DNA from: Xiphias gladius
Lineage: Eukaryota; Chordata; Actinopteri; Istiophoriformes; Xiphiidae
Direction: 5' to 3'
NCBI RefSeq assembly: GCF_016859285.1
Contig: NC_053416.1
Location: 9,128,001-9,192,000 of the forward strand
DNA: 64,000 nt
Each line of letters starts with the position of its first letter. Within the stretch, counting starts at the first letter, position 1. Shown one piece after another: positions 11,452 through 55,076 of this stretch. A program made the position numbers and the translations under genes. The notes under the pieces were generated by a model that saw only the letters and a program-made list of their open reading frames with translations, was not told the origin of the DNA and searched no databases.

Positions 11452-18089
<6,638 letters not shown>

Positions 18090-26123: not shown

Positions 26124-29100
26124 TCAGTTTTGTTGTCCTTTGTCTGCAGTTCTGAAGTCTTTTTGCTTCAATAACTGGTTCTCCAGCTCTTCCACTTGAA
26201 CTTTTTCCTTCCCTTTCAATTCAATCCTCAGGTCTGCAACTTCTTTTGCACTACAGAGAAAGACATAGTACGTACAGTACTGTATGTGTGAGGAAATCAT
26301 CATTCACCCTATATCAGAATAATCATCAGGTGAGGTTACCATTACAACCCCACACATTAGCAGTTACAACTGATGCCATAACTTGGAAAGTATCAATGGT
26401 CACCTGAGGGGAATGAGAATGATTCCACATGTCAGGTTGAGCTGCTGAAGAATTGTGGGAAGGCTTGGAGCGGAGAACTGGAGAGAAACACAAATGAGAT
26501 AAAGTATCTCACGAGCAGAAATGGACTTAATGCTACCATGGAAGTGGACTTGACAAACAGTACAAACCTTTGGAGGTGGTATACAGGCACTAGGTGTGTT
26601 ACTGTAGATATGGTTGATGGCCTTCTGAAGGACCACAGCCTGCTGAGTGAGGCTCTTCAGGTATTCTGAGCTTTCCTTTGTACTGTCATGGATCTCACCA
26701 ACCTTCATATGTGCAACAATGAAGTGTCTCAGATAAAATAATGATCATATAGCATCAACATAACACCAGCAAACATGGTATTCCAGCACTTTAAAGCACA
26801 CCTGGCTCTTGTATATTGAATAAGCCTCTTTCTCGTGTTGCAGAGCTGATCGAAATTCTCCTTTAGTCTCGTACACAGTGGCGAGCAGATGATGACTGCA
26901 CAGAAGATAGACATTGGAGAGGCAGAGAGGTAATATAAAAGAAATGAAGGAAGGGAACAGTAGATGACTAGGAAGATCAAAGAAACCTATATTTCAAAGC
27001 ATTTCTAGTATTTTCCGTAATTTTAATGTGTTGTTATCTTTGTTTTTTGTCTCTCTGTCTGCTTCTGAGTATAAGCATGTAAAAAAACAACAACAGAGGA
27101 ACATGATGATAAAATTGTAGTGTTACCTGTGTGCATGCTTCAGGGATGTGTCACCGCTGTATTTTGAGGTTAAATTTAAGGCATTCTGTAGGAACTTCAG
27201 GGAAAGCTCATGCTCCATCAGTCCATGAAGTACTAGACCCAGCATACTCTAATGTAGTGGAGCACAACAGGGACATTAATAGATTATTTTCAGCACGCGA
27301 GCAAGATGTGATTATACCTTCTACCACAAATAAAAGTGACTACATGTAAAAGCCTTGTCTGAAAGTTCACGAGTGAGGACTGTTTGCTGAAATCATCATA
27401 TCTACCTTAACCTTTTGTTTGTTTGTAAAAAATCTTTCCTTAAATTTTATTCAAAGTTTGGTCTTGATCTAACACTTTAATAATACTAAAAAGTCTCCTC
27501 AACAGTACTTGAAAGGATTTTGTTGTATTTTTTCCTACAAGACTTAGAGTAACATTTTATTTTGAGTTATTCGGACTTTCTTAACCAACCAAATCCTTAA
27601 ATTACCATAAAGCACTTACTGAAGAATGTGTATAAACTACCTTTAATGTTCAAAATATATAGATAACATCTTGTTAGATTTTTTTGTGAAAAATACAGTA
27701 GAAAGAAAGAATGCAACACCTTGCAGGTTGTGTCTCACTTACATCCAGCAGTGCGACTTGTGGATGGTCTTCTCCGCTCACAAGCAGGGTGAGGTACCGA
27801 GCGCGATACAGCAGGTGTAGGGAGGTCGAATGCTGGCCTCCAGCAAAGCAGTACAGGGCCAGGTAAGTCTGAATCACAGGGGATAGGAGAATACTTCCAT
27901 GTGAAGACACAAGTGAGATACTACATTAATAGAGTTAAGTAAGATGTTTGTAAAAGAAAAAAACAGGATTAACACGTTCCACAATCTGTCTGTGGGTCGA
28001 TGAGAAGGTGGAGAAACTCACATAGTCTTGTATGGTCTGTGGATGGTCTATACCAAGTAGTCTCTCACTACTCATAACAGCCTTTTCCTGGTGGCTGAGA
28101 GCCTGTGAGATATTAGGAAAACATTTTGTTGTGAAAGCTCACAAATGTTCATATCACTGTCTGTTTGTATTAATAGTGCAGATCAACGACTGTATGACAG
28201 CTTTAATAAAACTTGACATGTGGGGGATGATTCAGAGGTCTGGAACCAGGCTAGATGAAAGGTCATGAAATGAATTGTAATTCATATTTACATCCGCATA
28301 TTCCCCCAAGATGTAGCTGAGCCGTCCCAGGAGACGCAGACACATGCACACATCCTCGTGCAGGACCCCACATACGCTGCTGAAGAGGGTCAGGGCCTGG
28401 CTAATCAATTCATAGCCATCTCTGAGAAGTCCTAACAGCAAACATAAAACACTAATGATGAGATGTACTCAAATTAATATTAAAGAACGTCCTTTAACAT
28501 CTTAAAGGATACATTCACATCTTTAAGTTTACATTACTCACATGGCCATAAATACTGCTTGTACATTGAAAGGGTTATTGGTTAATGTAATTGTTCTCCC
28601 TGGTCATACTGGCCACAAGTGTCACCTTAAATTCATTTCAATATAATGAATTGAAGTTAGTACAAAATTCCCTCTTTGTGCTTCAAGTGTTTGCTTGCTG
28701 AGCCATGGCGGAGGGCCCGTAACAGAAACCCAAAAGACTGCCACACTGGAAAATACCTGTCTGATTTTTCTGACTCAGGCTACTGAAGGGTTAACTATCA
28801 GCTCCTGCTGAGCTCGAGAATGTTTTTTTACACAGAATGAGTACTGTGGATTTAGTCATCTGCCACGTAAACTGAAACTGCTTTAAACGGGGATCTCAGC
28901 AGGAACAATTACAGCGAACAAAAACTCTTTCAGTGCACATATGGGCATGTGAGTATTGCTTTAAGGAAGTTACTTTTAAAGTACTTTATTTTGAATCATG
29001 ATGTTAGAAACACCAACACCAAAAAGTTGGGAACAATACAATGTCCATTTCTGTTGCCAGAAAACTGGCAACAGCGCTCTAAAGGCTTAAACCGATTGTA

Positions 29101-32100
29101 TGTTAAGGATATCGTCAACTTTACCTCCTTAATTGAAAGCATCACCACGTGAGCTCCATTTGAAAGCACCGATAATATCAGATGAGTGAAATTTTTAGCT
29201 CTATGACATTTTTGCCAAGCCAATATCAGGCGATATAGGCTGAGTGGACCTTCCAGTTAAGGTTCAGCCCCTTGTAGCACCCAGCCGAGGCCACCATGCC
29301 ATCCTAAATGTAAACACATATTCATTTTACGCAGTTGTACGTGTTTTTACTGTCTGTCTGCGTCTCTCACCCTGCTGTACTGCCACCTGTGCGTGTTGCA
29401 CAAGCCGCGTGGCGTCCGTTGCTGTGGGTTTGAGATGTTTGACCACAGGGAACATGTTGACAACATCTTCCTCACCAAACACTGGCCTATGTCGAGACTC
29501 AAACACATACTCCCTCAGCTGTACCTAAGAAGGGACAGAAGGGGAACAGCTGCATTTTGAGGCTGCACTAGATCATTTTGCACTTTGGTGCCCCCAAGTC
29601 ACTGCTGAGGACAATTTCAGTTTTAAAGGGCTTTAAAGGCCTCTGTTTTACTACAAAAAGTATCAAACATGAACATACATTTTTTTCCCTCTGCGAGGTT
29701 GACAAACTACAGAGGTGTGGCCAAAAAAGTTGCCGCTGACCTAAATCTCATCCTGGCCACTGGAAGGGGTGAAAACTATGTGAAAAAACAGTTTTTGCAT
29801 CGTGAGCCCAGCTTTCTATCAAAAGACAACTTGCTGTTTAGAAGAACATTTTCCATTTCTTTCTCTAGTCCTTATTGTTTACTTTGAGCCAAGTACATTT
29901 CCTGCCTGTGACACCTTGGTCAAATAAAGCAGTATCAATAGAAAGTTTTCTCTGTTGCAGCTTCAGATCTGATTTTTAATTATACAGAAGTTGTTCCTAC
30001 AGCTACGGCTTTCTAATGCAGCTTTAATTTAATACATAAAATGTGTTAGGAAGAAAAGCATGGTAGATGTCTGACCTGGATGCCCGTCTTGATGGCAATC
30101 TCTCTCAGTAGGGAGATCCTCTGAACGCCGTGCTTTTCTATGACTTCATCTATACTTTGACTTAACACAGAAGGAATGAAAGTGTTAAATACTGTTGCCC
30201 ATATCCAGACACAGACACACACACACACACACACACACACAATCATCATCATCATCAACATCACACATCTTAAACTTCAGAATCATGATAGACTGATCAT
30301 TAATACTCCACACAAGACTCACGACTGCTGGAATCTGATTGGACACACACACCTGTCAATTGTGTAGTGGTAATAGTCTCCAGCCTCAGTCCTGATCCTG
30401 CCCCACAGCTCACTGGGGGTCAGTCTAGCCCACACACTATCCGTCAACAGGGCGACCCGACTCCCGTGGCTCCGTCGACGTCGGCTCCTGCGACGAGAGA
30501 GTAGCTCGTCGGAGCTGGAGTCGGGGATACAGGAGGAGGAACTCAATAGGCAGTTGAGGAAGTGACTGACAGCAGCAGAGAAAGCTGCAGGTGCCACATC
30601 CTGGGAGAAAATAAGATATATGTTGAACTTAGAAAATTATTGCTAGATTTTAAAATGTTATATCTCAATATTTTACGAGTTTTTCATTATTTGAGCACGT
30701 CACCTGTAGATAGGTCCTGAAGATGTGTTTTGCACTTCTGGTGATGACTTCACTGATAGAAATTCTCTGTGAGGGAGCATTTGATCAGTTATTTTATCAA
30801 GAAGACTTTAAAGAAGGGGCAGTCACCATTTAAACAAAAAACTGAGCTACAAAACTTGCTACAGAGTATTTTATATCATGTTATGTTTTATGTTTCTGCA
30901 TCTTTGCTAGCGTACTGTAGTGTACTTTATACCAAAGTGTTTTATTTTTCATTTCATTGGTTTGTTACCACATTTTTTCTACAGTATATATACATGTTCT
31001 TGTGCTGTCTTTTTCTTGTTATTTTCTAGTCCAGTTTACTCGAGTTATTGATATTCTATTGGTCTACAGGGCTTATTCTTGAGTGGTCTAAGTTCTATCT
31101 CTATGAAAGGCATCTTTCTGTTGAACTTGCTAGCCTTATTTTCCTGTCTACAAAACGTTTTTGTGGTGTACCTAAAGGGGCAATTCTGGGCCCTATTCTT
31201 TTCACAGTTTATATGCTTCCACATGGTCACATAATTAGCAGAGACAACATATTGTTTAATTTTTACGCAGATGACGCACACTCACACCTTCTACTGATTC
31301 TTGTAGTTTGGTTTTCCTAAAAGACTGCTTTGATAATATTAAGTGTTAGATGTCTGTAACTTTCTCCAGCTTAACGAGGATAAGAATTTCATTTTCCCCA
31401 CCCAGCCTGGCAGTCAAAATTAAAGAAAAACTTGACTTCCTGCCAATTAATAACAAGCCATCTGCCAGGGAGCTATTTTTGATTCAGATCTGAACTATGA
31501 AAACCAAGTACAAGGGATTATTCAGCCCTGTTTTTATCAGTTGAGAAACATCTTAGTTAAGAAGCATCTCTAAAGTCAAACCATTTCTGTCTGCAGTTAG
31601 TCTAAAATAAAGCTGGAACCATGTGAAGAGAACACATCACCCCAATTTTAGCATCCCTCCATTGGCTTCCCATTGCTTGCAGAAAATTCTAATAATCTTG
31701 TACAAAGTGCAAAATGGTTTAGCTCCAAGCTTCATCTCTGACTTGCTAAGCCCATACGTACAAGGGCACAGACTTAGGTCAGCAGCAAAAGCCCCTCTTG
31801 CAGTAGACTTGCAATGAAGGTCAACCGTGGATTTGCTGTCATGGCACCTAAACTGTGGAATTAATTGCCATTTAGAATCTGCACAGCTACTAGTGTATTT
31901 TCTTTTCAAGGTCAGCTAAAATCAAACCTTTTTAAACTGTATGAGTTTATGATTTCTCTTTTTTGTCATTCATCTGGTTTTAATTTCTACTCTTTAGTTT
32001 TATTACTGCATGTCATGTTCTTTGTTAAAACGAGGATAAGGTATTTTTTACCTGTGCTAAGAAAAGTACTACACAATTATATATTATTCTTCTTCTCTTA

Positions 32101-33085
32101 GTGAACACATTTGTATTGAGCTCTTGGTAATGACCGTCTCTTGTCTCTCACTTTTACTTGAACCGATCACAACTGTTACTGGGTTTTCTTCTGATACGAG
32201 TGAAAAAGACTAAAAGATATTAATTTCCAACAGTTGAGGAGGTCTAAGACTGTACTAATGTGAAGCAGATTCAGTTATTTTCAGTCTCGTTAAACTTGCA
32301 CAGTTTTCAAGGCACATCTGTTATACCTCACCAGACAGACAAATTCTACATACGGACATATTTTACATCACCAGAGTGAAAATGATTGCTGATAACAATC
32401 AGCAAATAGTATTGAAGATTTAAATGAGTGGTCTGATAATTGAAATTTTAATTACAATTTGTTTTGCCATATTTTCAGAAGTGACCGGGTGACCAGGTGT
32501 TTTACTTAAACCATCCCGTACTGTTGTGTTACAGGGAATCCCTGCAATTAATCATATGTCCAACACATCTGCATCTGTCCTGTCAATTAATCCCTACCTT
32601 GTGAATTCCAACTCAATGCTCAAAATACCACCACAAACGTAATGACTCTAAGTGTTTACTAATGTAATTGAAAACGACCATAACGCCTGTGAAGCATCCG
32701 CAACTGATGTATAAACAACTAATGAATGATTGACAACGTAATAAAACACAGTTGTAGTCATATACAATATTAGGACATATTTTATATGAATATGAAATGT
32801 GAGGTTTGTTTAATACATTTATTGGTTATATTTATTAATGAAGTATTCAATGGAAGAGGATGAGATGCAATCGAGCTATACTGACTTTACAAACATGTTG
32901 TATAGTTAATAATAGCTGTGGTTAGTACCTCTATGTGGCTGAGTCTTCCTCTCTCCTCCACCCTGTGCAGCTCCCTCAGTAGCGCGCCCAGGTATCGTAC
33001 GTTCACACCCTGCTGATGTAGCACTGAGGTCAGGGTCAGTCCATCCATCGGCACTGCTGTTTGGTCGAGACAGTCCCTAAGCTGC

Positions 33086-33130
<45 letters not shown>

Positions 33131-36100
33131 ATCATCATCATCAACATCATTCCTTTTAAACTTTAGGATCATGATAGACTGAGCAATGATACTCCACACA
33201 AGACTCACGACTGCTGGAATCTGATTGGACAGCAGAAAAGCCGCCGCGTCCCATAACAGCTTTCTCTGCCTCTGAACCTCCTCGACAAACTCAGATGAGA
33301 AACGAACACCTGCAGCAAAGACACACAGTTCAATCTTAGTCTGTTTTTAAAAGAATACTTTATATACATTGCTGTGTGCATGTGCTCGTGCACAGTTGTA
33401 TTCAATACCTGGAGAGCAAACATCAGGATTGAAGCGGATGTCAAAGCAAGAGTCACTCACTGATCCGACAGCCCTACAAGCGGTCATGATCATATCTCTT
33501 CTCTGAAATTCTGCAAAAGTAAAATATGAATGCATTATTTACTGACATAGCAAAATATCACAATCAACCGATGCTCATGTCTTTTCTTGGCCTCAGTCAT
33601 TAGTTAATGATGAATATTTGTGCATTTTGAGGGTCAGTTAACTGTGATGTAAGTTTATCAACAACCATTACAGTAAGAATTCTTTGAAGTTATCAGAATG
33701 ACATCATCTTTATTCTAAAATTGAAGGAAAAAAAAAGGTCACCACAAGGTCTATTTAGTAGCTGTTCTCGAGCTATTTATCATGTCACATGGTCTTCATC
33801 ATCATGTTTTTGGAGTTGTAGTGGTTCGATTTAATGGCTTCATATCCACGTTGGTGTAAAAGTTGAGAATGAAACTTGTCGGAGTTATGTTATTGTCTAT
33901 TGTATCACAGGTTAATTATTATTGATGCATGAACATGTAAACAGGATTTTATTTTTGTAGCAGGTGGAGGTCGACCTAATTTTTTTTTTACACTCAAAAC
34001 TCATCAAATGTTTTGTATGTAAAATCTTTGTTTGCAAAGTGAATATTAAGTATAGCGGTCAGGTAAATGCTTTGGCGTAAAAGTTTAAAGTTTCAAAAAA
34101 TGGAAGTAAAATAAAAGTAATTCAAAATTGTACCTGAGTACAGTGCTTGAGTAGATGGACTTAGTTACATTCCACCAATTGGAATGAACTCCCTCTGCTT
34201 TTATGCTAACAGGGATGAGAAGTCCTTAAAGTGCTCAGAAAAACGATCAAGTGATGTGATTGAAAGCTCCAGAACAACTACTAAGTGGACCGGATGAGAT
34301 TGTTTTGCCACCTGTTGTTTCCAAGGCTAAGAATTAACTTTAAAACTTGTGATTTCACATACTACTATAATATAATACACTTACATGTCTTATTACTCTA
34401 CACTAAACGTTGTGTTTCTCAGCCTAGTTTCTCTTTGTAATAACACAATTTCTCCTGGTTCACCAATAGATTTTATCCTTTCACATAATTTAGCTGGTGT
34501 TATTCACCCAGGTCAGCATCGGTTGTGGCTCTATCTCCAGTTCTCGGCTCGCAGACCAGACCTTCACTCTGCTTCTTGGCTTTATCCTGTTCTTCCAGTT
34601 GGCTGAGGCCCTGGGCCACCATCTTCGCATAACGTTCATACCTGCAACAGGAAACACAAGGTTAGAGGAATAAGATACTTTGTCTCCAAGACTAAGTTTA
34701 TCCATGCTGGTTTAATAGTTGCATGGTGGCTGCATTTGTAACCAAACACTCATCAGAGAGGTCCACATCTCCCCTTCCTCACCTGTGCTGGACAAAGGCC
34801 TCTATCAGCTCTGGTCTCAGGCTGGCCAGGCTGTGATGATGTCGCCGTGGGTAACCAAAGCTCTGACACTCCTTTGGCACCTCCTCCCCCGTCTCCTCTG
34901 TCTCTGAGAACTGGAAGTTAGGGTCAGGGGGGAAGGTGCGGAGAAGATCCAAGATGTAAGGTCGTCCGTCATTACCCAGGATGCCTTTAGTCTCAATGCC
35001 AGAGCAAAGGTCCACCGGGATGTTGTTGTGATCGAGCACCTGGTGACGTTGGATTCTCAGGGGTTTACTTGTCTTATCCAGGAGCTCCAGAAACCTGCGG
35101 TAAAACACACTTGTGATCACACAGAGTAATATTGAGAAAATTAAATGCATGTCAGGGTTACCTGTTTGAACTCTTACTTGATCAAGTTCTAAATACCTGA
35201 AATATTAGACATTATGGTTTTGTGTGAGTATGTGTGTTACCTGGGGTGTGTAAAAACAGTTGTTCCATAGTCATTAGAGCCATAGACTACGCTCTGCTCT
35301 TGAGTTTTCTCCAGTATCCCAGGAACGATTGTCTGAGCGATAACACGGATGCCACGGTAATCCACCACAGCTGTCCCAATTGTGTGAAGCCCCTCTATGT
35401 CGACAGATGTGTATGCCTGTTGTAGAGCAGTTTCATTATTTTTGTTTTGATGACAAGAACTTGAAAGCATTCCTACCAATAATCTGACAGGGTGGGAAGG
35501 GATACGATTGGATATATTTGAAAGTGAAAATGAGAAAAGTAGTCCATGCAACTGCAGGATAGATTATTATCTTGATGTGTAACTGCTGAATATTGTTTTC
35601 CCTTTAATATCCACATATTATACCCTTACAGAACAATTGAATGTAATACTGCCCCCTCTAAAACAAACGTGCTTTTAAACAGGACAGATGAAACGGTAAA
35701 CACATTACAAACACCCCAGGATCTCTACCTGTGCTCCTCTCAAGTCGCAGCTGGCAGCGGCATGAGCAGCGGTGTTGCCTCCAAGTGGGCGGTAGTGTTC
35801 AGATATGTCGAACCCCAAGCTGAAGAAGAGGTTGTTCCAGATGAACATATGCATATGAGGCGCCTCGCTTGGGTTTAATGGCATGACGTTGCCATCAATA
35901 ACGGCCACGGCACCTCGTGTTGCAGCGGCAACAAAGTCACTGTTGGTCTGGATGAAGCGTGATTTAAAAACAAAAGAGCAACACAATCAATGCTAGAGCA
36001 GGATGAGGAAGGAATAATTTAATATTCATTAAAAGCTGAACAGCACAGAGGAAGTATAGGAGAACAAGGGAGGGGCTATACATCTAAGTCTTATATACTT

Positions 36101-39100
36101 TTGGTCTCTAAACTGAAGATCTCACAGCCACTATTCTGCTTCTGTAACCGATAATTCGGAGAACATTGGAAAGAAGATGTTAAGAAATCTTTGGTCTTTG
36201 GTCTCACCTTAAATATGCTCCTCTCTCTGTGCAGGCGCTCCTGAAGGGAGTTCCTGGGGAGTTCCCTGCATCCCTGCAGCTCCTCATTCCAATCCCGGCT
36301 CTGTGGTCATAGCACACAACCTAAATATCAGCATCATCATCGCTATCAGTTAGCCTTATATGCACCCTGAAGCCTTTGTTTTTGTGTCTATGTGCATACA
36401 TTTATGTGCGCTAAGTTCTGTAGTTTACTGCATTGCTATATTTTGCTGCATTTCCAAATTTAGCCTGTTTCCCCTAATTTGTGTCTGCAACCTGCCCAGC
36501 TGTTTGCTTGTCCTGGCCCATGCGAGTGGTGTGTGTCTCCTCCGCTCTGACACAGTCGAGGGTGTGGTCTCCATGAGGGGCAGTCCAGGTGAACACCTGA
36601 AAAGGTGCTGCGAACCGCTCATAAGGGTGTTGCTGGACTCTGGTTCACAGCAAGTGACAGAAAACATTTTTCTGTTAGCAAGGTTAGTATGGGTGTGAAG
36701 ACTTCTGTTTATTGGGATGAAAGTGTTATTATTTATATATATATTATATATATATATATATTAACTGAGTTACATGACACTTGTATTAATGAATTTTCCA
36801 ACTCGATTATGGACAGTTTGCTCACCTCTTCTTCTGCAGTGCACTGAAGTTTTTCCTGAAAGCAGGGCTGACCTGACTCAGCAGCTCTACTAGAGAGTGG
36901 CAAAGGATTTTGGGCACTGCAGGTTTAGGGTTGAAGCTGAAGGCCGTTGACCTGGAGCAGTCAGAGCACACAAACTGTAGCACAAGTTGAATCCAGGTAA
37001 GTTTTTTCACAATCCTCATCTTACACATGTTGTTGGTTTACTTTTGGAATTTTGAGAGGAAGAAATGCAACATTTAGAAGCAATTTATAATAAGAAAACA
37101 AGATTTAGAGTCCGTGGTCATACTAGTGGCTCTGTGGGACTGTGCACAGACACAGTGGTGTAAACCCAAAGTACAGCTGAAGCTGATGGACATGACATTA
37201 GTTCTGCAGGTATTTGGTCATAAACCTGAGTATGGGACAAATTGCAACTTTGACCTCACGATGGTGTTAGGTGAAAAGTTGAGGGATCACCAGAGTTATT
37301 ACAATTCAGTGGGATGTGAGTGGGACATGAATGTATGAAATGTCATGGCAATTCATCAAGTAGTTGTCAAGATTAGATACAAGATCTGGGAACCATGAAT
37401 TTCTGTACAAAATTTTCTGTGCCAATCCATATAAGATATTTCTAAGGATAAGTGAAAACTAAGGATAAGGGAAAACTGACCTGCTGTTGGTGCCTGTGGA
37501 AAAGTAAGGGGATCTGTACAAAACTCTCTGCCAGTCTTTTGGGAAGTTGTTGCGATAGTTCATGGGATGGGTTAAAATTTTGATCTGCTGGTGGCTCTAG
37601 AGGAAAAGCCAGGTTATCCCTCACATCAGTAGAATTCATTTTCTGGGCACCTTGAATGTCTGTACAAAATTTCATGGCAATCCATCCAATAGTTGTAGAA
37701 TTATTTCAGTCTGGACAAAAGTGGTGGACCGACTGACAGTGCCATCCCCAGAGCCGTGCCACTAGCTTGGCTAAAAACGCATAGATTAGCAAACTTTGCA
37801 ATGGCTGAACAGTTGAACACTCACTGGTTGAGGTAGAAGCCACGCGTAGAGGACGTAATGTTGAGTTCCCTGTCCTCCATAGTCAGGACGTTCAGGTACA
37901 TTAAGTCCCCGTGCATTTTCCTGTTCCCTGGAGGAGGATTCCAGCTGTTCATGGTCAGAACCCGCAGGCACTGTAATGGCTGTAATGATACTTTCATAAA
38001 ATTCCACTGTTGCTTCACTACAAATGAACATGTTTCATTTAATTTTATACATTTAACAAGTCATATTTGCAATCCCAAAAGCTGATCTCTCACCTTAAAG
38101 TCATCTCTGACGGGCTGCAGTGGAGTAAGTGGTCGGTCCTTACATCCGGGGAGGATGTATTCCGGAGGGCTGCATTCAACAGATTCCCTCTCAGACACTC
38201 GCCTCTTCCCCACAATCTCATTATCTGAAATGATGAATATGGAGGCCGGAAGGGGTTGAATGATTACTGACAGAAATGCTAAGACAAATCCCAGTGTGAG
38301 GAGGTATGAGAGAACAAAATTACCCTTGTCTCCTCTGGTGTAAAAGGTGAGGTAAGATAGTGAGCTGCCGTCCACTCCGTTGTATGCATCTGCAGGGTCA
38401 AGGCTCCTCAGAAGATCACATACATGTCTGAGATGAAGATGAGCATCACGCACTGTATAAGAATCTGCAACGAGATGAGAGGAGATGCTTATGAAGTGTG
38501 TAATTCAATGAATGGAAGGTATTTCTTGTTGCTGCGTCGCATTTCATGAAAGAAGGTGTCAGCGCATGTACAGACAATTCAAAAACGGTGCAGTATAAGT
38601 GACTCAAGCGGAGAGGAACTTAAGTTATCATAATATCATATGATAGTCAAATTATTTGTCAAAATCAGTGATACTATGCATATTTTGTCATGCAATCCAC
38701 TATAGTGAACATATTTGTTTCATTTCATAGGTGATATGAATTTAATATATTATTCTATATCACCTAGCCTTGGAAAATAAACATAACACAGTGTTTAAAT
38801 ATTGCATTTTTCAATATTTTTTAGTTGTTGGTGATGTTTTTTAAAGCAAACTTAAACTGCGGTTGGATTGTGTGGAGTCATAAATGATGCTGTAAACTTT
38901 CCTTGATGAGCTTAGGTATTCGGCCATTTTCACTGCATTTGCGCAGCCTGATGATCTGAGCCTGAGCAGTTTTGAGACATAAAGATAGAGTGTGTGTGTG
39001 TGTGTCTGACACCTGTTGAAGTTAATAACAGTTTGGAGGAAAGGTTAACAATTTTCAGACTAAAAGGGGCCTTAACACAATGTGTTACGGATCAATACTA

Positions 39101-41818
39101 AAGCTGGACTGATGTCAGATGCTGACAATGTTGCTCTCCGATGTAAACCACACATTTAATTGTCAGAAAATGACAACTTATAAGGAAGAAAGAAAGGGAT
39201 CGGGCAGTTACCCTCCACCAACTTGATCAGCGCTCCGTCCTGGATGCCCTGGATGGAGCGTAGCTCTGTCAGATTGTCGAGCGTGGTGCCTCCCAGCTGG
39301 AGGGAGAAGCACGTGCGGTGGCAGGTGATCTCGTGATCCATCAGCACCTGATGCAGCTCCGCCACCAACATCTGGCCTGACACCTGAGAGTGGAGGAGAG
39401 ACAGAGAGTTGGATTGGAGTGATTCAGAAAGACATGAAGATGCAGTGCAGTAAGAAGTTAAGAAAATAACGACAGTAGTACAGCAGAACCTGGAGCTCAA
39501 AGCTTTCTGTGCCAGGAGGTTGAATTCTGACAATAAAGCTTGTCTCTTGGAGATCAACTACGTCACGGATGCTAAGTTGTTCCCTTTTATCAGGATCAGA
39601 CTGCTCCAGGCGATCATCCTTGGGGAGTTCTTGAGTTTGACTTGGATGTGCTGTTGACAAAGGTGCATAAAAGACAAAAACAGGTTTTGAGGATAAAAAC
39701 TGGCAGTGTCATATGGATAATTGTACCCAGAATTGAAATTAAAAAGGAAAATGCAAAATAAACTATTATATTTCAATGCAGGATAATCAGGCAATAAGTA
39801 AATGTTAAACTGAAAATGGAAACTGAAAAAGGAAATTGTAAATTGAAATGTGATTGAAGAGGAAATGATAACATATATATATAAGATGGAAAAGGAAAAT
39901 ATATTTAGATATAATGTTACATTTTGGTTTTTTCCATTTTCCACTCTCCTTTTTGCATTTCCCCTTTTCCATTTGGTGTTTAGCCTTTCACTTTGGCTTT
40001 TCCCTTTGCCTCTTCACAATTTCAATTTGCCATTTAAATACCGAATTTCTTTTTCCAGTTTCCTTTTTCTTGTTAACATTTAATCATGGCCTGACTATCT
40101 TAAGTACTAAAATATAATAATACTTTATAATAGCTTAGTCATTTTCATTCAATTTTCCTTTTCCACTTTTAATTTGAATTCTGAGTAAAATTGTCCTCTG
40201 TAGCGTGATGATCCACTGTACAAGCCACCAGCACAAGCTTTAGGAACATGTTTGAATATGACAGTACAAAGATAAACACAGGCCAATAAAATCACGCACC
40301 TTTGCCATGTGGTGCTGCCAGAAACAGTCTGTCAACTAAAAACAGGGTCATTTGCTTGATCCCAGCTCCTTCCTCCTCCACCTGTGGCGGAGCTGTCTCC
40401 GACTCCAAAACATGCTGCAGACCAGTGTCATTGCCGCCCTCTTCCCTCTTTGGTGGGTGCGAGTTTTCCTGTTCTGCATTTAAAATGGGGTGATCTGCTG
40501 TTCGATCTGTGTGGTCCTCAGACGGATTTATTTTTGTTCTTGTGTGGATAATGTTACGGTCCTTTTCATTTACATTCTGAGGTGACATCTCAGCCGCCTC
40601 TCCCATCTGTTCGTTAACCTGATAACTCAGTAGTGTGCGGTCTACACGACACTCGGCAGGGTCAGAGTTCACCACAATATCAGTGTTGTTGATGCTGTAT
40701 TTTGTCAGCGTCCTCTGTGACTCCATTGCAGTGATTTTCTCGTCCATGTTGTTTACACTGTGTTTGGTCAGCATCACAGAAGTGCACTCTGATTGAATAT
40801 TTAGTTTTTTCTCTTTTACATCCTCCTGTGTCTGCGAAGTGTGGTGCTCTGTCCAGGCAAAGTCTGTATTTTCCTGAGCAGCAATAGTCTTCTGTTGCAG
40901 CTTAAAAACAGTCTCTTGATCAGTGTTAAACTCCTCTTTTAGCTCGGTATTTTGTTCCGTTTGAAATGTATGCTCGTGGATGTGATTCTCTTTCGGTTCT
41001 TCCTGTTCAGCTTTCTTGTCTATATATCTGAAGGCCAGTTTGTTTTTCTCCGTCGGTCTTTCTAACTTCCCAGACTCCTCTAACTCGGCAAAAACGTCTA
41101 GGTCAGACCAGGCTCCAGCGCCCAGTATCCTTTTACTTTGTGTCTCTGATGGCATAGCGGTGACAATTTCTGAGCGTCTCTCTCGTGATGATTGTCTATC
41201 TGTTTGTACCTCCAGGACCACATCCACCGGTTTCAGTATTTTATGTTCTTCCTTAACATCCACAGCCATCTCTTTTGTAGTGCCAACGCTTGTTAGTGTA
41301 TTTACTTTCCTCTCCACAGTCCCATTATTGCAAACGAGCATGTCTGTTTGTGTCTGAACTTCTGCCTGTGACTCTGTCTGAGTCTGTACCCCCATACCAA
41401 TCTGTGTCTCCATTTCGGTCTGTGTCTCAACCTCAGAGTAGCCCCTGTTTCTCCTCGTGTTGCTCCCCTCTTGCCCTTCATTTCCTGGCTCATCCTCCCT
41501 CACTCGCTCACCTCCTCCCTCTTCCTCCTCAGACACCAGCAGGCAAACCATCGGCTCCACCAGAGTCACGTCCCCTCCCAGGTTGCTGCTTAGGATGATG
41601 TCAGGAAACAGGAAGTGCTCTGGTTCAAGGGCCGGGTTTGTCATACCGGTAGAGACGGTCAACAGATCATCCTCCGGGTCGTCCGGCAGGCTCGGTGGGT
41701 CACATTCACTCTCTTCGCTGGATAGCAGAGGGGATCTCTCTGCCTCACCCTGGGCCGGTGTATCCTTACACTTAAAGTAGTTTGAGAGTGTGTGACAGCA
41801 TTGAACTATGTTTCCCAT
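26124..41818 (-). CDS. cluh: Clustered-mitochondria (CLUH) family protein with a long novel N-terminus
   Basis: CLUH is a cytosolic mRNA-binding protein for nuclear-encoded mitochondrial transcripts. Coding exons: 40300-41818, 39490-39650, 39212-39383, 38324-38464, 38094-38224, 37825-37970, 36826-36951, 36492-36639, 36208-36300, 35729-35947, 35241-35416, 35094-34783, 34508-34641, 33409-33510, 33209-33309, 32929-33081, 30704-30766, 30353-30600, 30076-30154, 29371-29524, 28292-28431, 28022-28102, 27743-27868, 27127-27248, 26802-26895, 26568-26702, 26404-26477, 26124-26250. They total 5277 nt, an unbroken 1758-codon frame. Residues about 540-660 are the CLU N-terminal region ([30 protein letters not shown]). 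About 710-1115 hold the conserved core ([37 protein letters not shown]), about 1195-1380 the central domain and about 1450-1650 TPR repeats ([14 protein letters not shown]). The final residues are a charged helix. Divergence from mammalian CLUH is marked, so a fish-specific paralogue is possible. The exon 2 donor (GTTCTG) is weak. Confidence 0.9.
28620..28960. repeat. Probable dispersed repeat in cluh intron
   Basis: A non-coding block (GCTTGCTGAGCCATGGCGGA through ACAGCGAACAAAAACTCTTT) in the intron between the exons at 28292 and 29371. It resembles a repeat that I have seen in other fish genomes. No ORF or splice role is evident, and the boundaries are approximate. Confidence 0.35.
30217..30345. 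repeat. Copy 1 of an intragenic duplicated segment with CA tract
   Basis: A CA run (about 30217-30240), then ATC repeats, then sequence nearly identical to 33127-33231, including CACAAGACTCACGACTGCTG. The unique part is 105 bp in both copies. In the other copy it is the last 23 nt of a cluh exon plus 82 bp of intron. Here it lies entirely in the next-but-two intron downstream on the gene strand. Confidence 0.9.
31040..31990 (+). mobile_element. Decayed L2/Maui-like LINE fragment (reverse transcriptase 3' part)
   Basis: Plus-strand frames give [20 protein letters not shown] and then [18 protein letters not shown], the GVPQGSILGP and YADD signatures of a non-LTR reverse transcriptase. Further right come LHWLP-like and [16 protein letters not shown] motifs typical of the C-terminal part of fish L2-clade ORF2. 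Frames change and stops intervene, so the copy is dead. It lies antisense in the cluh intron between exons at 32929 and 30766. Confidence 0.8.
33091..33231. repeat. Copy 2 of the intragenic duplicated segment with CA tract
   Basis: The counterpart of 30241-30345. Positions 33209-33231 are the 3' end of a genuine cluh exon, and 33208-33202 is its GTGAGTC donor. The CA run (about 33091-33126) ends only about 10 bp before the acceptor of the next exon. Confidence 0.9.
34040..34185. repeat. Teleost repeat family B copy (GAAGTAAAA / CTTGAGTAAA type)
   Basis: Words such as AAATGGAAGTAAAATAAAAG, TACCTGAGTACAGTGCTTGA and a final ATTCCACCAATTGG fit a dispersed fish element rich in AGTACTTTTACTT motifs. 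Related copies are at 49.14 and 61.86 kb. Confidence 0.5.
37180..37775. repeat. Percomorph dispersed repeat (ATTTCATGGCAATCCATCCA type), duplicated block
   Basis: It contains GTACAAAATTTCATGGCAAT, CCATCCAATAGTTGTAGAA, TTCAGTCTGGACAAAAGTGG and a terminal GCCACTAGCTTGGCTAAAAA. The phrase of a gene-poor body, 'fate of coordinates' aside, is the same as at 55.5 kb. Related words (ATGTCATGGCAATTCATCAA) occur earlier in the block, so it appears internally repeated. It lies in the cluh intron between the exons at 36826 and 37825. Confidence 0.75.
39715..40205. repeat. About 490-bp imperfect palindromic (foldback) element
   Basis: The left half is purine-rich on the plus strand and the right half pyrimidine-rich. 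The halves are imperfect reverse complements over most of their length: CCAGAATTGAAATTAAAA pairs with TTTTAATTTGAATTCTG, AAATGTTAAACTG with a TGTTAACATTT block, and AAATTGAAATGTG with CACAATTTCAATTT. The centre lies near 39.95 kb. It sits in cluh intron 1 and has no ORF, consistent with a foldback MITE. Confidence 0.65.
40300..41818 (-). CDS. cluh first coding exon: 506-residue disordered N-terminal extension
   Basis: This exon, listed separately because of its content, begins [19 protein letters not shown] after a strong start context (GGCACCATGG). It runs 506 codons and ends GGCAAAG|GTGCGT. The leftover G joins CA of exon 2 in frame with the CLUH core. Visible motifs are Gly2 with Cys7/Cys8 (myristoylation/palmitoylation-like), ERSPLL at 27-32 (acidic dileucine type), TQT/TQI at 132, 138, 146 and 156, and otherwise Glu/Thr/Gln/Asn-rich low-complexity sequence with no predicted fold that I recognise. 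The acceptor at 41862 (CTCCCTTAG) leaves 43 nt upstream of the ATG that are open in frame, so a coding upstream exon cannot be excluded. It could alternatively be an exon of a distinct overlapping transcript. Confidence 0.8.
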
Positions 41819-41861
41819 GGTGCCTTTGTGCACAAAACAGCAATACAACTTTGCAGGCGGC

Positions 41862-46165: not shown

Positions 46166-47956
46166 TCACAGAGCAGTTTCTCCTTCTCCTGCCCCCATGT
46201 CCACCCTCCTGTGTACCCTGCTGTCTTCTATATCCTCCCACTCGTCCTCCATCCCGTCTCCTTCCTGCGTTCCGACGGGCCGGTTCAGGCGGAGGAGGCG
46301 GTATCTGAGCGGCACCAGGAAGAGGGCAGGGTCGGGCATGGGGTGTGGCCTCTGCGCTGACATCACTCGCTCCCGCGGGACGCAAGCTCTGACCCTCTCC
46401 TCTCTCGCCGTGACACGCCTTCTGTGTCTCGCCTCTGCTCGGCTGGGCGAGGCCGGAGGAGGTGGAGACAGAAGCCAGTCCGAGCCCCCCCCGTCATCAT
46501 CCTCATCCTCCTCATCTTCATCCTCGTCTTCCTCTCCTTCTTCTTCCTCCTTTCCTCTGGGTTCCTCCTCTCTCTCTGCAGCAGAGTCGGTCCTCTGCCG
46601 TTGCTGGAACAGTTTTAAGCGTGCAGTGTGGAGCTCGTGGCAGAGGGTCGTGGTGGTGACATTTTGGCGTTGCAGCTCACGACTCAGCAGCGTGATCTTG
46701 TGGCTGCGGCGTTTGAGCTCTTCCAGGAAACGCCGCTCTTCTTCCCGGAGGCTCCTACCGAGTGCCGATGTTCGTGCCCTGCCGGCCCGCAGCTCCCCAC
46801 GTACGGCGACCATCATGCACTGCTGGTCCTCTAGGAGACGCTCTGCAGCCTCACAGCGTGCTGCCAGCTCTGCTTCCTCCTCTGAGAATCACACATAAAC
46901 ACATAAAGTATGGACTGCAGTATTTATGCACAGATTCAGAAAATAGTGCAGATGTTGAGGAAATAGTTCCTTGGTCTGTATCTTACATTTCATCTGCTTT
47001 ATCAGTTCTTCTCATATTGCATTTCATACGGTTTTATTTTCTCTGTGTTCGTCTGTGCTCCTTCACTCTAATACAGCACTTATAAAGTTTTTTCATGGAG
47101 CACTGCATTTTCTTGTAGCAAACACTGGGCACGCTGTCATCCTGTCTTGCCCCGTCACACAATACTAACTAAGGACGCACTGAGCCAATCTTTTCTCCCC
47201 AAGAACCAATTGCGAAACCTCGGCTCAGCCCGCTGCTTGGAACTCATTGCTGGTCATTTTTTTCACGATGCCAAAGGATGCCGTGGCACTGAAAACTAAG
47301 TCAACGGCCTGCTGTGGCTGGATGAATGTAACTGCAGATACAGCTGTATCAAACCAGTGCATTCCTATTAGGAACAAATATAACGATAAAAGCCCAGATG
47401 CAACCCTACACTGCTAAAATAGGCGTAAATATAAGCAGAAATAATGTTTATAGTCATGCAAATGTATCAAAATAACATTCGAGAGCTCATCGTTGTAACT
47501 TTTCTCTTGTGAAGGCCTTGTGAACTTCCAGTCCTCCTCCGCACAGCCTTAGTGCTTTCCGCTCAGTGATTATGATATCAAATTTCAGCACCTCCCACGT
47601 ATCACTTTTCCCCGTCAGCAGGGAGTTGTAATATCTTACCTGCTGTGTTTCTGTCGGGAAACCCGGAGTCCAGCTCACAGCTTAGCTCTGCAGACAAGAG
47701 CGGTAGAAGCACAACAGGCAGCCAGACGGAAAAAGATAAGACAGGGTGACAGGCAGACAGACAGGTAGCCAAGTGGCTGAGAGACACAGAAAGAGATGCA
47801 GAGCAGCGGGCCACCGGCAGACTGACCATGACAACGCCTCTTCAGGTGTGTGATCTCCAGCTGCAGTCCCGTCAGCATGGCCAGGTGCTCCTGCTTCAGG
47901 AAGGCGATGCCTCTCTCCACACTGGCCACCTGCTGCTCCAGCCTCCCGGCGTCCAT
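46166..47956 (-). CDS. ccdc92b: ccdc92b, coiled-coil domain-containing 92B
   Basis: Exons 47827-47956, 47640-47687 and 46166-46881 give 894 nt, that is 297 codons plus stop, with matching phases. Exon 1 encodes MDAGRLEQQVASVERGIAFL and the coiled-coil start typical of CCDC92-family proteins. Exon 3 encodes RCEAAERLLEDQQCMMVAVR, then REEERRFLEELKRRSHK. A strongly acidic stretch follows (about residues 185-205, Glu/Asp run), and then the conserved C-terminal PMPDPALFLVPLRYRLLRL. The start has a good context (CAGCCATGG), and an acceptor at about 47980 shows that a noncoding exon lies upstream. The location next to cluh matches human CCDC92B. Biochemical function is unknown to me; paralogous CCDC92 is centriole-associated. 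Confidence 0.9.
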
Positions 47957-47999
47957 GGCTGAACCCCCACACGACCTGCACACAGGTGTTGGTGGCTGG

Positions 48000-50042
48000 A
48001 TGTATCGGGATTTCCCTGCACAGCTCTTTACATTACAAGGGGTGTCCCAGTCTGAGCTCTGACACAGAACAGTGCTGGGAGATTAAGCGTCAATTCCACG
48101 TGCAAACACATAACATGGCCTTTATTTATCAAAATAGAGTGATACACCATCTGTTAGTAGGCTCAATAGTTGGATTGTGTTCTATCATACCACTAATACC
48201 ATAAAGTCCTATAACACAGTGCTTTTCTGCAACATTTAAGAGGTTTACTGGGTAATTCTTATTTGCTAAAGCCTACCCTCTCATTTAACCTCATTGGCTT
48301 TATTTTTTCTCAGTGTAAGCTTCCCGATTGCTGGTGCTCGGTCTCGACCTGTAAGTGCAAATTCACAACACTCTGACCGTGGCCTACCGTGATACCGAGG
48401 CAGTATCCCACTCGAAGCGTTTCTCATGGATCCTCGTATCGCCCTGAGATCTCCGTCCTTGATGCTGCAGCGATGGAGAAAACAAAAGACCCGTGCGAAA
48501 ACCTCCAGTGCGCAAACTGCCGCTCGTTTCTCTTTTCTTTTCTTTTCTTTTTTTTTTTTTACGTTCTCAGGTGAGACGCCTCGCTGTTGCGGCGGGATGG
48601 CGTCTTTATAAGAGCTCGGAGGGATCCTGCAGCGGTCAGTCGGAATAACCTCCCCATAACCTTCTGGCTGTGCGCGCGGTAGGGTGCCGCTGCTGTGTTC
48701 ACAACAAAGCAGCCCGGTATGAGGGGTGATTAGTGCCACCGAGGAAGAGGAGGGGGAGGAGGAGGAGGAGGAGGAGGAGGAGCTAGATGGAAATGATGCC
48801 ACCAACCAAGAAAGAGAAAAAGACTTTGTTCTTTTCTTAATTTCCTAAGATGATAGCCAGTTCAAAGTCTCATCCCACTTCTGGTCTGCAATGCATTTGT
48901 AGATTTGTTTTCCCTCAGAGTTAAAGATTATTATATGCTGTTGATTTGTTAATTATCAGTGTATTTAAGTGTCAGCGGCGTTTCAATGTTGTAGCTGGTC
49001 GAAGAGGCAAAGGTTTCAACTCTTACTTACTATTACAAGTACTTATTATACACTGTTGGTAGTTTAATCAATAATGATGCACAATGTTTTATAATGTGAT
49101 AATATGATAATAAAATCCTAATCTGCAAAGTAGCTCGTTGCTATAGCTGTCAAATAACTGTGGCTGAGTAAAAAGTACAACATTTGCTCTGAAACGAAGT
49201 GGTGCAGAAAATGGAAATACTTAAGTAAGTGAATGTACTCAAGTACACTCACCTTCTAAGGTTTAAAGAAAATTCTTGGAAATTGTGGCATTCTCGAAAG
49301 TAAGGGTGCAGGAATTTTTCCGATCGACGATTATTAAATGATTATCTTCCCAATTAATCGTTTGTAAAATAGTGAAAATGCTTATTTTAATTATCCACAG
49401 CCCAAAGTGACATTTTCGGATCCCCAAAACCCAAAGATATTCAGTTTACTATCATGCATGATAAAGAAAAGCCTATGTTTAAGGTTTAACATTTATCATA
49501 TTTAATTCAAACTGATCTAGGCCACACACGGTATGAACAGCATCTCCCACAAGCCTTTAGTTGTTCATCTGTTTGATTTGTCACCACACACCACCTGGAT
49601 GACTGATGACTCGACACAGACACTACGACTGGTTGCATCCAAACACTTTCGTCGGACTGCTGCTATTCTCTTCACTAGTAAAGACCGGAGACAATTTGGA
49701 TGAGAAGAGATGTGTGACAGTGAAGAGTGGAGGGGATTAACCACGGCAATTCATGCTCCAGATCCATATATCATCATAAACTATCAACTTCAAATCAAAA
49801 AAATTTGCAGTAAATAAATTGAAGCTGTACATATGGACCATTAATTCCACAACATTTAACATTAGATAGATTGTGGAGAAAAGGGAAAACTGCACAAGTT
49901 CAGGTTGATTTTAGTTGTAGTGCTATGTGACATACTGGTTATAAGACATCATCTTTATACTTGTCCAGTGTAATTTTGCCGCGAATAATGCACAAATAAA
50001 TAATTTAACGTAGTCACAGCAGGTAGAATTGAATGGGTTTTT
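48000..50042. other. Interval between ccdc92b and fbxo40 copy A
   Basis: The left part (about 48.3-48.8 kb) is GC-richer and should contain the ccdc92b promoter and a noncoding first exon; a possible minus-strand donor, GTAGGC, is near 48387. A (GGA)n/(GAG)n run spans about 48740-48780. Further right are a repeat family B piece (49140-49260) and a MITE family A piece (49300-49475). No coding gene is supported. Confidence 0.5.
49300..49475. repeat. Teleost MITE family A, partial copy
   Basis: CGACGATTATTAAATGATTA, CCCAATTAATCGTTTGTAAA and CCCAAAGATATTCAGTTTAC match the left half of the family. The right end is missing. Confidence 0.65.
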
Positions 50043-53000: not shown

Positions 53001-55076
53001 ACAAAGTAAAACACCAGACATGGGGCTTTACTGAATTCCACTCGATATATTTTTATTTATACCGTCAAAAATATCTGACTGACCTTGTGACCCATGACCT
53101 CCTTCTCAGCGTAGCCGAGCAGGGTGGCTGCTGCCTCGTCACCGAACCAGCTCTCTATGTTGACCCCGAGGTCTGATGTGTCCACGCCGCAAGGCTCACT
53201 CTGAGCCCTCGCAGCCGTGTCGTAAAGATGAATCCGCCGCCTGTAGTGATAGCTGTCAGGGACCTTATAGGAAGAAACACATGAGAATATATTACATTAC
53301 ATTCTTTTGTAAATTGTTAGTGGGTCAGGTTGACTGTGGTATATTTTGCCAGTGCTTATTTTAAAGCTGTATTGGGCGACTTAGCACAACGGCGGCTGGA
53401 TTTGTTGGTACAAGGCAACTGTTTTAAAGGCTAATTGGCGCCATCCGACAAGCCCTTTGGTTGAAGCGTACTGACGCTGAAGGCTGAAGAAAAGATTTTA
53501 TTTTACAGCGAATAAATGTAGCTTGAAGTCATCACCTTGAAAGAGTGCAGGGTCTGGACTGGGATAGGCTTCAGGCTGCCATAGACAAAATCTTTGTCCC
53601 TTGGCGTACAGGCCTTGATTTGTCCGAAGGAAAGCAGCATGCGCCCATGATGCACCACATACATGTTGTAATCCCGCAGGCTGATCTCCTGCCCCAGACG
53701 CTCCAGCACCCCCTCGTGCCACGGCGCGTGCCCTGTCTTGCTTGTGTTAGGTGGAGGGCAGTTTTCACCATCCTTCTGTGTGTCTTTGTGATCTTCACCT
53801 GTTTTTTTCACCTCACTGTCCTGCCTCCCAGCCTCCTTTAAATCTCTCCTACTCTGGGCCTCCCCCTTCTCACCAGATTTTGGCTTTGGTTTAGGATTGT
53901 CAACGTTTGCCTGAGCGACAGCACAGCCACCTCTCTCCATGCCGAACATCATCTCACTCAGATTGTATTTCTCTTTACTGAGAACTAGGCCTTGACCCAC
54001 ACTGTTCTGTACAGTCTCTTCAACATCATTCTCACACGAGCTATTTTCTGAGGAAATGGAAGTGTGGAGACCCACGGGAGACCATACAAGGGGAGAGATT
54101 TTGAGACCCCAGAGGAGAAAAAAGAACAGAAATTACATAAACAAACTGCAATATTTTATGTGATTTGAATGATTGCCTGTAATGTACACTATATGTGCAT
54201 ATGAAGGATTTCATTCCAAAATTTCTTCTCCATATTTTTCTTATTAAAATTAATCAGTGTCACATATTAATCACATGTGATTTAATACTTGGAACCTCTG
54301 CTGCTGTGACACTAACAGTCACCCATAATGGACCATGCATCATTTTGTTAAAGGAGGCATCAGTGGTTATTTTAGTTGGCGATCTTATTTATTTTGGAAT
54401 GAAACAGTGCTACGTTTCACCTTTATTGGCATCATTGATTATGACACCACTGACAAACCCTCCCATTGCCATCTCTTCTTTCTCCTCCTCCTTTAGTTCC
54501 TCCTCCTCTTCTTCCTCCATCAGCTCTGGATAGAGGGGCTTCATTTTCAGGCGGCCATAAAGGTCTGACTGATCAACCAGGGCCATGGCAAGATCCAGAG
54601 CCTCCTCCTGCCCCTCATTTTCCCTCAGCACATTCTCCTTCAGGGCCATGTCGCTGTGTGGGTTTGTGTCATCAGTCGGCCAGCGGAGCCACTCCATGGA
54701 GCAACACACCACGCTGGCCGGACACACCTGGAGGTGAGCTGCCCGCGAGGAGCGCGGCATGTGGACCGGGCAGCCGTACCCAGCGTTGAGGCAAGGCACC
54801 CTCACGTTAGGGCAGAGCAGCAGGTGATCCTCCTCTTTGCACAGGTGGAAGAGAGCACCACAGTGCAGGCGGCAGGGGATGACTGAACAGCACACAGAGA
54901 CCTCCACCCGAGCCCTGCAGCGCCGGCTGTAGCAGGAATCACAGTGGACATGCTGTCGCACCTTGGAGGCTCGAGAACGATGGCTCTGATCGGATGAGAA
55001 AGATAGGGACCAAGCTAACATGAGAGAATAATTCAGGAACAAGATGGGGAGAGGAATTATATCTGTGACTCACCAT
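50043..55076 (-). CDS. fbxo40: FBXO40-like F-box protein, copy A (minus strand)
   Basis: FBXO40 is the muscle F-box subunit of an SCF E3 ligase. Exons: 55074-55076 (ATG only), 54421-54985, 53536-54047, 53084-53263, 51330-51571, 50824-50955, 50353-50689, 50043-50255. They total 2184 nt, 727 codons plus stop. Residues about 12-105 are a Cys/His-rich TRAF-type zinc-finger region (HVHCDSCYSRRC, HLCKEEDHLLLCP, HLQVCPASVVCCSMEW). The middle keeps DYNMYVVHHGRMLLSFGQ and KACTPRDKDFVYG. Residues about 480-540 are a second zinc-finger-like segment (FLCGHTFHRREF, WFEQRCPLAYLGCTYSQRRF). The F-box lies at about 592-640 (SSLPYEVLCHMASFLDSMSL). The C-terminus is PISAHLKVCPYY and onward. A further noncoding exon likely ends at 56165 (donor GTAAGACC). 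It is paired head to head with copy B. Confidence 0.93.
53264..53535 (-). other. Intron 3 of fbxo40 copy A, absent from copy B
   Basis: A 272-bp phase-0 intron splits HSFK from VPDSY. In copy B the homologous residues RTFK|VPVSF are contiguous in the genome. The acceptor is CTATAAG. Confidence 0.8.
54048..54420 (-). other. Intron 2 of fbxo40 copy A, absent from copy B
   Basis: A GTGAAACG donor at 54420 and a TTTCCTCAG acceptor at 54048 bracket 373 bp between the codons for DANK and ENSSC. Copy B encodes the equivalent stretch within one uninterrupted 1206-nt exon. Confidence 0.75.

Follow-up and report, generated by a model that had tools for sequence, protein, structure and literature searches.

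CLUH (clueless) is presented, in the excerpted text of PMC7196838, as a cytosolic, granule-forming regulator of messenger RNAs (mRNAs) for mitochondrial proteins, and as linked to mTORC1 signalling and mitophagy in mouse hepatocytes. CLUH also interacts with astrin (SPAG5), and DYNLL1 is named among the astrin partners in the accessible part of PMC9135405. A different protein, LAMTOR1 (p18), the membrane anchor of Ragulator, is palmitoylated on Cys3/Cys4, which are needed for lysosomal anchoring, while Gly2 is predicted to be myristoylated, as far as the excerpt of PMC6454084 goes. In this study, I analyzed a window of 64,000 nucleotides from Xiphias gladius (contig NC_053416.1, here C17, positions 9128001-9192000 within the 690.8-Mb genome), which carries a CLUH-family gene on the minus strand. 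Upstream of the conserved core of this gene, a single long exon, called here the extension exon, would encode a tail of up to 506 residues with a start resembling that of LAMTOR1. The reading I prefer, with a probability of roughly 0.44 (obtained by multiplying my estimate that the exon is joined by my estimate that the tail is acylated), is that the start of this CLUH duplicate moved from exon 2 to the upstream exon, which would place an acylated tail of up to 506 residues before an intact core. In the literature searched by title and the beginning of the abstract, no account of a CLUH with an N-terminal extension or with myristoylation was found, and MGNIVQCC and its variants gave no match in the literature searched. 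The existing annotation of fish genomes may hold a long model.

The extension exon and its coding capacity

It was found that one long exon, as described in the initial annotation, lies at 41818-40300 on the minus strand (1519 nt, or 506 codons plus 1 nt, reading MGNIVQCC...HGK) and ends in a phase-1 donor (AAAG/gtgcgt, score 4.9). The stop-free stretch around it extends from 41896 to 40295 (minus; 534 codons, 1602 nt) and is closed by an in-frame TGA at 40294-40292, just past the 40300 donor. The start context of the ATG at 41818 is strong (GCACC-ATG-G), and there is no second in-frame ATG between 41896 and 41818. The open length is far above that of shuffled sequences. In 1000 dinucleotide shuffles of the 1602-nt stretch, the longest open frame had a median of 89 codons, a 99th percentile of 161, and a maximum of 221, against 534 in the real sequence.

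A codon score was trained on the CLUH core pieces of the C17 gene and of its paralogue on C7, a slightly impure set with 7 stop codons in 2243. The extension exon scored +105.9 bits in its own frame, the highest of the six frames; the other sense frames scored 45.4 and 59.3 bits, and the antisense frames -31.3, 73.1, and -37.3 bits. The 270 background windows had a mean of -172.8 and a maximum of -43.1, a contrast that is partly circular because the background itself had been trained on the presumed non-coding sequence that supplied these windows. A common composition also raises the scores of the sense frames. The case for coding is carried by the length of the open frame and by its margin over the other frames. 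When the exon was cut into five slices of 300 nt, the extension frame was the top sense frame in all five, with margins of 1.7-16 bits (only 1.7-4 bits in three slices), and the first 300 nt had the strongest coding score (41.7 bits). Judged by its length and its margins, the extension exon is almost certainly coding.

The likely 5′ untranslated part of the exon spans 41819-41861 (minus). Because a usable acceptor (CTCCCTTAG/GCC, score 3.5) precedes 41861, the sequence suggests that a non-coding exon further upstream is spliced to a point 43 nt ahead of the ATG.

Three donors scoring at least 2.5 are found in the extension exon, with last exon bases at 41749 (4.5), 41512 (5.7), and 40300 (4.9), and all three are in phase 1. 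The two internal donors, CAGG/gtgagg at 41749-41752 and GGAG/gtgagc at 41512-41515 (both minus), would give extensions of 23 and 102 codons, respectively, and the latter is the top-scoring of the three. Due to the common phase, each donor would join exon 2 in frame. Tails of 23, 102, or 506 residues are thus possible, with MGNIVQCC kept in each, and the 404 codons between the 41512 and 40300 donors would form an optional in-frame segment. It is rather unlikely, but worth weighing, that the exon is mostly spliced short at 41512 (or 41749) and that the normal tail has 102 or 23 residues, acylated or not. Such short splicing overlaps with the preferred reading and is not exclusive of it. The higher score of the 41512 donor, its phase shared with 40300, the absence of stop codons in the 1212 nt between the two, and the top coding score of the first 300 nt all fit this alternative, whereas the four later slices all score best in the same frame, by 1.7-16 bits, as if they had been kept coding by translation.

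Probable joining to the core, and the other CLUH loci

Exon 2 of the CLUH core (39490-39650, minus) begins at the boundary aacag/CA CAT CCA and has no in-frame ATG. The other 26 core exons, which encode CLU_N, CLU, eIF3_p135, and TPR and run to the stop codon, were modelled within 26124-39383 (minus). The claim that the phase of the long exon's donor fits the core was borne out: the phase-1 donor matches the phase-1 acceptor of exon 2 at 39650, and the junction codon, G+CA, encodes Ala. A guided gene model from 41818 to 26124 yielded a stop-free path of 28 exons with 1787 codons plus a stop. The initial annotation had counted an intact 28-exon frame of 1758 codons. A stop-free 28-exon path does exist, but its length was different. 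The number of exons is partly built in, since approximate edges were supplied for 28 exons. As any path with a stop is passed over by the method, the model shows that a stop-free path through the conserved pieces exists, and speaks neither independently to the exon number nor to whether the frame is intact. Compared with C7, about 29 residues at the junction of exons 10 and 11 have the look of intron sequence, and the total of 1758 codons would fit if they are intronic. Models with less guidance, which by design likewise contain no stops, had 27 exons, 24 exons, and, at each of three settings, 25 exons; the 25-exon model has 1753 residues including the stop. The first of these, with 27 and 24 exons, left out exon 2, whose donor is weak, or fused exons over introns, and were set aside. 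In the Pfam search, the core matched CLU (PF13236; 258.2 bits against a cut-off of 24, E 9.4e-77), eIF3_p135 (PF12807; 184.1 bits, E 3.1e-54), TPR_12 (PF13424; 84.9 bits, E 4.4e-24), and CLU_N (PF15044; 41.9 bits, E 1.4e-10), all above the cut-offs, and the GSKIP domain (PF05303) scored 20.7 bits with a cut-off of 20.9.

Is the long exon shared by other CLUH genes of this fish? In a family search of the genome, exons of the CLU domain turned up on C17, on C7 (near 14.42 Mb), and on C19 (near 16.27 Mb), three loci in all, and 50 kb were fetched around each of the latter two. Over 13 aligned pieces, which cover 1062 of 1281 residues, the C17 core is 47.3% identical to C7; over 15 pieces (979 of 1281 residues), it is 36.2% identical to C19. 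Gapped joins are included in both comparisons. A phase-1 intron before exon 2 is common to all three genes. Exon 2 of the C7 gene has an in-frame ATG (HSADTA-MVNGDGAHEH...), which was taken as the C7 start, and human CLUH, of about 1300 residues, starts at a similar place. Since exon 2 of the C17 gene lacks this ATG, an upstream start is expected for it.

Plus-strand open frames of 140 codons or more were sought ahead of exon 2 in both paralogues. About 24 kb from C7 held three, one belonging to a CCDC92-like gene (255 codons) and two others (148 and 141 codons), and about 26 kb from C19 held one, of 154 codons. No exon comparable to the 534-codon frame was found in these 24-26 kb. A search of the genome with the tail matched only the tail itself, and a degenerate 24-nt pattern for MGNIVQCC occurs once in the 690.8 Mb. 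A tblastn search for a relic of the tail in the 50 kb around each paralogous locus returned noise only (best E 0.8). Among prokaryotic and viral contigs, none of 11 and 2 pattern matches, respectively, was confirmed as a relative, as expected for a fish exon. Three further candidates were rejected. A 29-residue resemblance (E 0.006) was seen at C7 local position 48286, which is already downstream of the gene, and a second match with an equal E value aligns to an intron; I regard both as chance matches. The MGGMCCH... stretch found at C7 local position 17933 meets a stop after 28 codons. The best of its donors (2.2) is in phase 0, and just two are in phase 1, with scores of -1.0 and -11.5.

The CLUH genes of C17 and C7 are both adjoined upstream by a CCDC92-like gene. 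Because of this common neighbor, the two copies probably go back to the teleost genome duplication as a pair. The CLUH start was then probably shifted upstream in the C17 copy, either via a gain there or via a loss in C7. It had been proposed that the fish CLUH protein, or an isoform of it, could be tethered to membranes. This is plausible for the C17 copy, but as a statement on fish CLUH it was too wide: the exon was found at one of three loci, and C7 has no comparable exon in 24 kb.

Several observations weigh against the joining of the extension exon to exon 2. The donor of exon 2 (CAG/gttctg at 39490) is very poor, with a score of -4.0, and must be used to reach the CLUH core; in C7, the corresponding donor is CAG/gtaagg. 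Exon 2 of the third, more diverged CLUH gene (C19:16271382 onward) also has no in-frame ATG, and no long or convincing upstream start exon was found for it in the 10 kb scanned, so a missing exon-2 ATG alone does not imply a long tail. All 17 candidate start exons in 46100-39651 (an ATG with at least one of the two Kozak bases and a phase-1 donor of at least 4.0) fall within the extension frame, but this is a weak negative for other starts: 17 of the 24 donors of the 25-exon model score below 4.0, so the scan would pass over a genuine start exon if its donor were weaker. A scan of 49000-39650 for donors of at least 6.5 gave a single candidate, 47829-47640 (donor 7.2, phase 1), which lies outside the extension exon. 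Its ATG is inside the CCDC92-like exon in another frame, and the candidate was therefore set aside as probably not the CLUH start, though not disproved. Finally, ATTAAA occurs at 40173 and 40084, after the TGA.

The latter points would suit a separate single-exon gene of 508 codons, with its stop at 40294-40292, lying upstream of a CLUH gene that uses another start. The in-frame TGA right past the donor, the two ATTAAA sequences, the weak donor of exon 2, and the strong-donor candidate at 47829-47640 speak for it. However, the phase match with exon 2, the lack of an ATG in C17 exon 2, and, more weakly, the lack of any other candidate in 46100-39651 speak for a joined exon, and the sequence past the stop is AT-rich, so ATTAAA may easily occur there by chance. 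A separate gene is improbable, and the extension exon is likely joined to CLUH in a major transcript.

Poor GTT donors at two exon ends may instead indicate a decaying duplicate, in which the C17 gene would be on its way out of function and what looks like a tail would be either a relic or an effect of annotation. Besides the exon-2 donor, the donor of exon 8 (CAG/gttgca at 36492) is very weak (-4.2), and C17 has diverged from C7 to the 47.3% identity over the aligned pieces. On the other hand, a stop-free path runs through all 28 modelled exons, and CLU, CLU_N, eIF3_p135, and TPR_12 remain above the Pfam cut-offs. Decay is the least probable of the alternatives considered here.

The tail and its motifs

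With the preferred reading, the C17 CLUH protein would begin with MGNIVQCC (41795-41818, minus), a candidate site for N-myristoylation at Gly2 and S-palmitoylation at Cys7 and Cys8, predicted from the sequence. Besides the Met-Gly start, the tail has eight Cys, at residues 7, 8, 17, 39, 92, 163, 345, and 390. Three of the eight lie within the first 17 residues (P = 0.0016, with the cut at 17 chosen after the Cys had been seen). The likeness to dually acylated proteins drawn in the initial annotation thus holds for Gly2 and the early cluster of Cys, and is weakened, as that annotation itself had pointed out, by Gln at position 6; the acylation is a prediction. Ser or Thr at position 6 is favored by N-myristoyltransferase (NMT) but is not obligatory. 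ARF1, GCAP1, and CYRI carry myristate although their position 6 is neither Ser nor Thr, and the same is true of several MGN proteins. The excerpt of PMC7048800 does not treat this position.

The acidic dileucine pattern claimed for ERSPLL is present at residues 27-32 (41723-41740, minus). The narrower pattern [DE]RxPL[LI], which was picked post hoc, occurs once against 0.0018 expected. The two in-phase internal donors described above and a group of TQT motifs are additions to the initial annotation. Three motifs resembling LC8 binding sites, TQTE (132), TQTE (146), and TQTD (156), occupy residues 132-159 (41342-41425, minus), and a fourth, VQTD, lies at residues 204-207 (41198-41209, minus). 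The pattern [TV]QT[DE] occurs four times against a shuffle mean of 0.09, and none of 20000 shuffles reached four. The pattern was chosen after the stretch had been seen, though it is based on the published LC8 core; the motif consensus was taken from the portions of PMC3078936 and PMC6607443 at hand. As a separate observation, a probably disordered loop of C7 CLUH (C7:14425119 onward), in a different part of the protein, contains pairs of LC8-like SQT[DE] (...DTSQTETT...STSQTDNS...).

On the same side as the poor exon-2 donor stand several properties of the tail. In addition to Gln at position 6, which is not the Ser/Thr favored by NMT, the general pattern [DE]xxxL[LI] is at chance level (one occurrence against 0.74 expected per shuffled copy). 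No basic residue is found at -3 of the LC8-like sites (no [KR]xTQT in the tail), and numerous TQT peptides, including a TQTE peptide of EIF2S2, do not bind according to the accessible part of PMC6607443. A degenerate 18-nt tandem repeat (2.1 copies, 41392-41428) overlaps the first LC8-like motif. The other three motifs lie outside it, and the idea that most of the TQT cluster is a tandem repeat was ruled out, as the repeat covers one motif of four.

No Pfam family or PDB sequence matched the tail up to E 10, a range in which the HMMER filters drop most weak matches. AlphaFold2 gave a mean predicted local distance difference test score (pLDDT) of 34.2, with 505 of the 506 residues below 50, which is weak evidence because the input was a single sequence. 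The charge-hydropathy rule called 8 of the 10 blocks of 50 residues disordered. By these predictions, the tail is probably disordered. It is conceivable, if not likely, that the exon is real and joined and that the tail is merely a disordered cytosolic extension, with Gly2 unacylated and the motifs incidental. Gln at position 6, the chance-level dileucine pattern, and the lack of a family match and of a confident AlphaFold2 structure agree with such a tail. The combination of Gly2 and a Cys cluster at the extreme N-terminus (P = 0.0016) does not, and the myristoylation of ARF1, GCAP1, and CYRI reduces the weight of Gln at position 6. A membrane anchor at the N-terminus of the tail is plausible. 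If the exon is joined, the balance tips slightly toward acylation of the tail, and if the tail is acylated, an endolysosomal location may be considered, with less than even odds, by analogy with LAMTOR1.

Proposed mechanism, neighboring sequences, and known systems

How might such a tail work? Gly2 would be myristoylated by NMT during translation, and Cys7/Cys8, perhaps with Cys17, would then be palmitoylated. Acylation would hold the RNA-binding core of the C17 CLUH at the cytosolic face of a membrane, and ERSPLL may steer the protein to endolysosomal membranes in an adaptor protein (AP)-dependent manner. The long tail would be a flexible spacer that may recruit dynein light chain via the TQT motifs, and the alternative donors of the same phase could trim the spacer with the anchor retained. 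From the sequence I infer the splicing, the direction of the start-site change, the acylation, the destination, and the dynein light chain binding. The fullest version, in which the post-duplication CLUH copy is a membrane-tethered, dynein-light-chain-recruiting RNA-binding protein, with dual acylation placing it on the endolysosomal membrane and tandem TQT motifs in an adjustable tail binding DYNLL, is a long shot. If it were true, the mRNAs for mitochondrial proteins could be carried or translated on moving organelles beside the mTORC1 platform, on which CLUH granules are already known to have an influence in mammals.

Some further sequences of the window and of the paralogous loci may be mentioned. 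The CCDC92-like gene (46166-48082, minus) lies directly upstream of CLUH. It has a relative upstream of the CLUH gene on C7 (14.40 Mb) and another on C19, where the position, 22.5 Mb, is about 6 Mb away from CLUH. No Pfam family was found for the 215-residue CCDC92-like piece. Two zf-TRAF_2 genes on opposite strands (54410-55042, minus, and 57183-58565, plus) have a stretch of about 95 residues that is nearly identical by eye, which suggests a recent duplication or gene conversion. Within the CLUH gene, two introns contain, at about 33230-33080 and 30350-30200 (minus), a near-identical stretch, again by eye, which reads as the end of exon 15 and a GT-repeat tract. It seems that the end of exon 15 was copied into the later intron.

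If the anchor is real, the C17 duplicate would be a natural test of whether membrane placement changes which mRNAs CLUH serves, and where. The C17 and C7 genes would also stand as a clear example of duplicates that diverged by relocation of the start site rather than by a change of domains. If acylation fails, a modest finding on the gene model remains.

The C17 copy has the same CLU_N, CLU, eIF3_p135, and TPR core domains as CLUH/clueless. It shares with the C7 gene the phase-1 intron before exon 2 and the CCDC92-like neighbor, whereas the in-frame ATG of C7 exon 2 is absent from C17, which may carry up to 506 extra N-terminal residues. The arrangement of the tail was likened to that of LAMTOR1 in the initial annotation, and the order of the motifs is indeed alike: Gly2, a Cys pair near the N-terminus, and then an acidic dileucine, which LAMTOR1 also has. 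The likeness goes no further than this order, since no match pointing to homology with LAMTOR1 was found in Pfam or among PDB sequences up to E 10. In contrast to LAMTOR1, the Cys pair of the C17 tail is at 7/8 instead of 3/4, and the tail is much longer and appears to be attached to CLUH. The tail also resembles multivalent LC8/DYNLL ligands such as ASCIZ and GKAP in that several anchors of the TQT type lie in a region that is probably disordered, and differs from these ligands in lacking the basic residue at -3.

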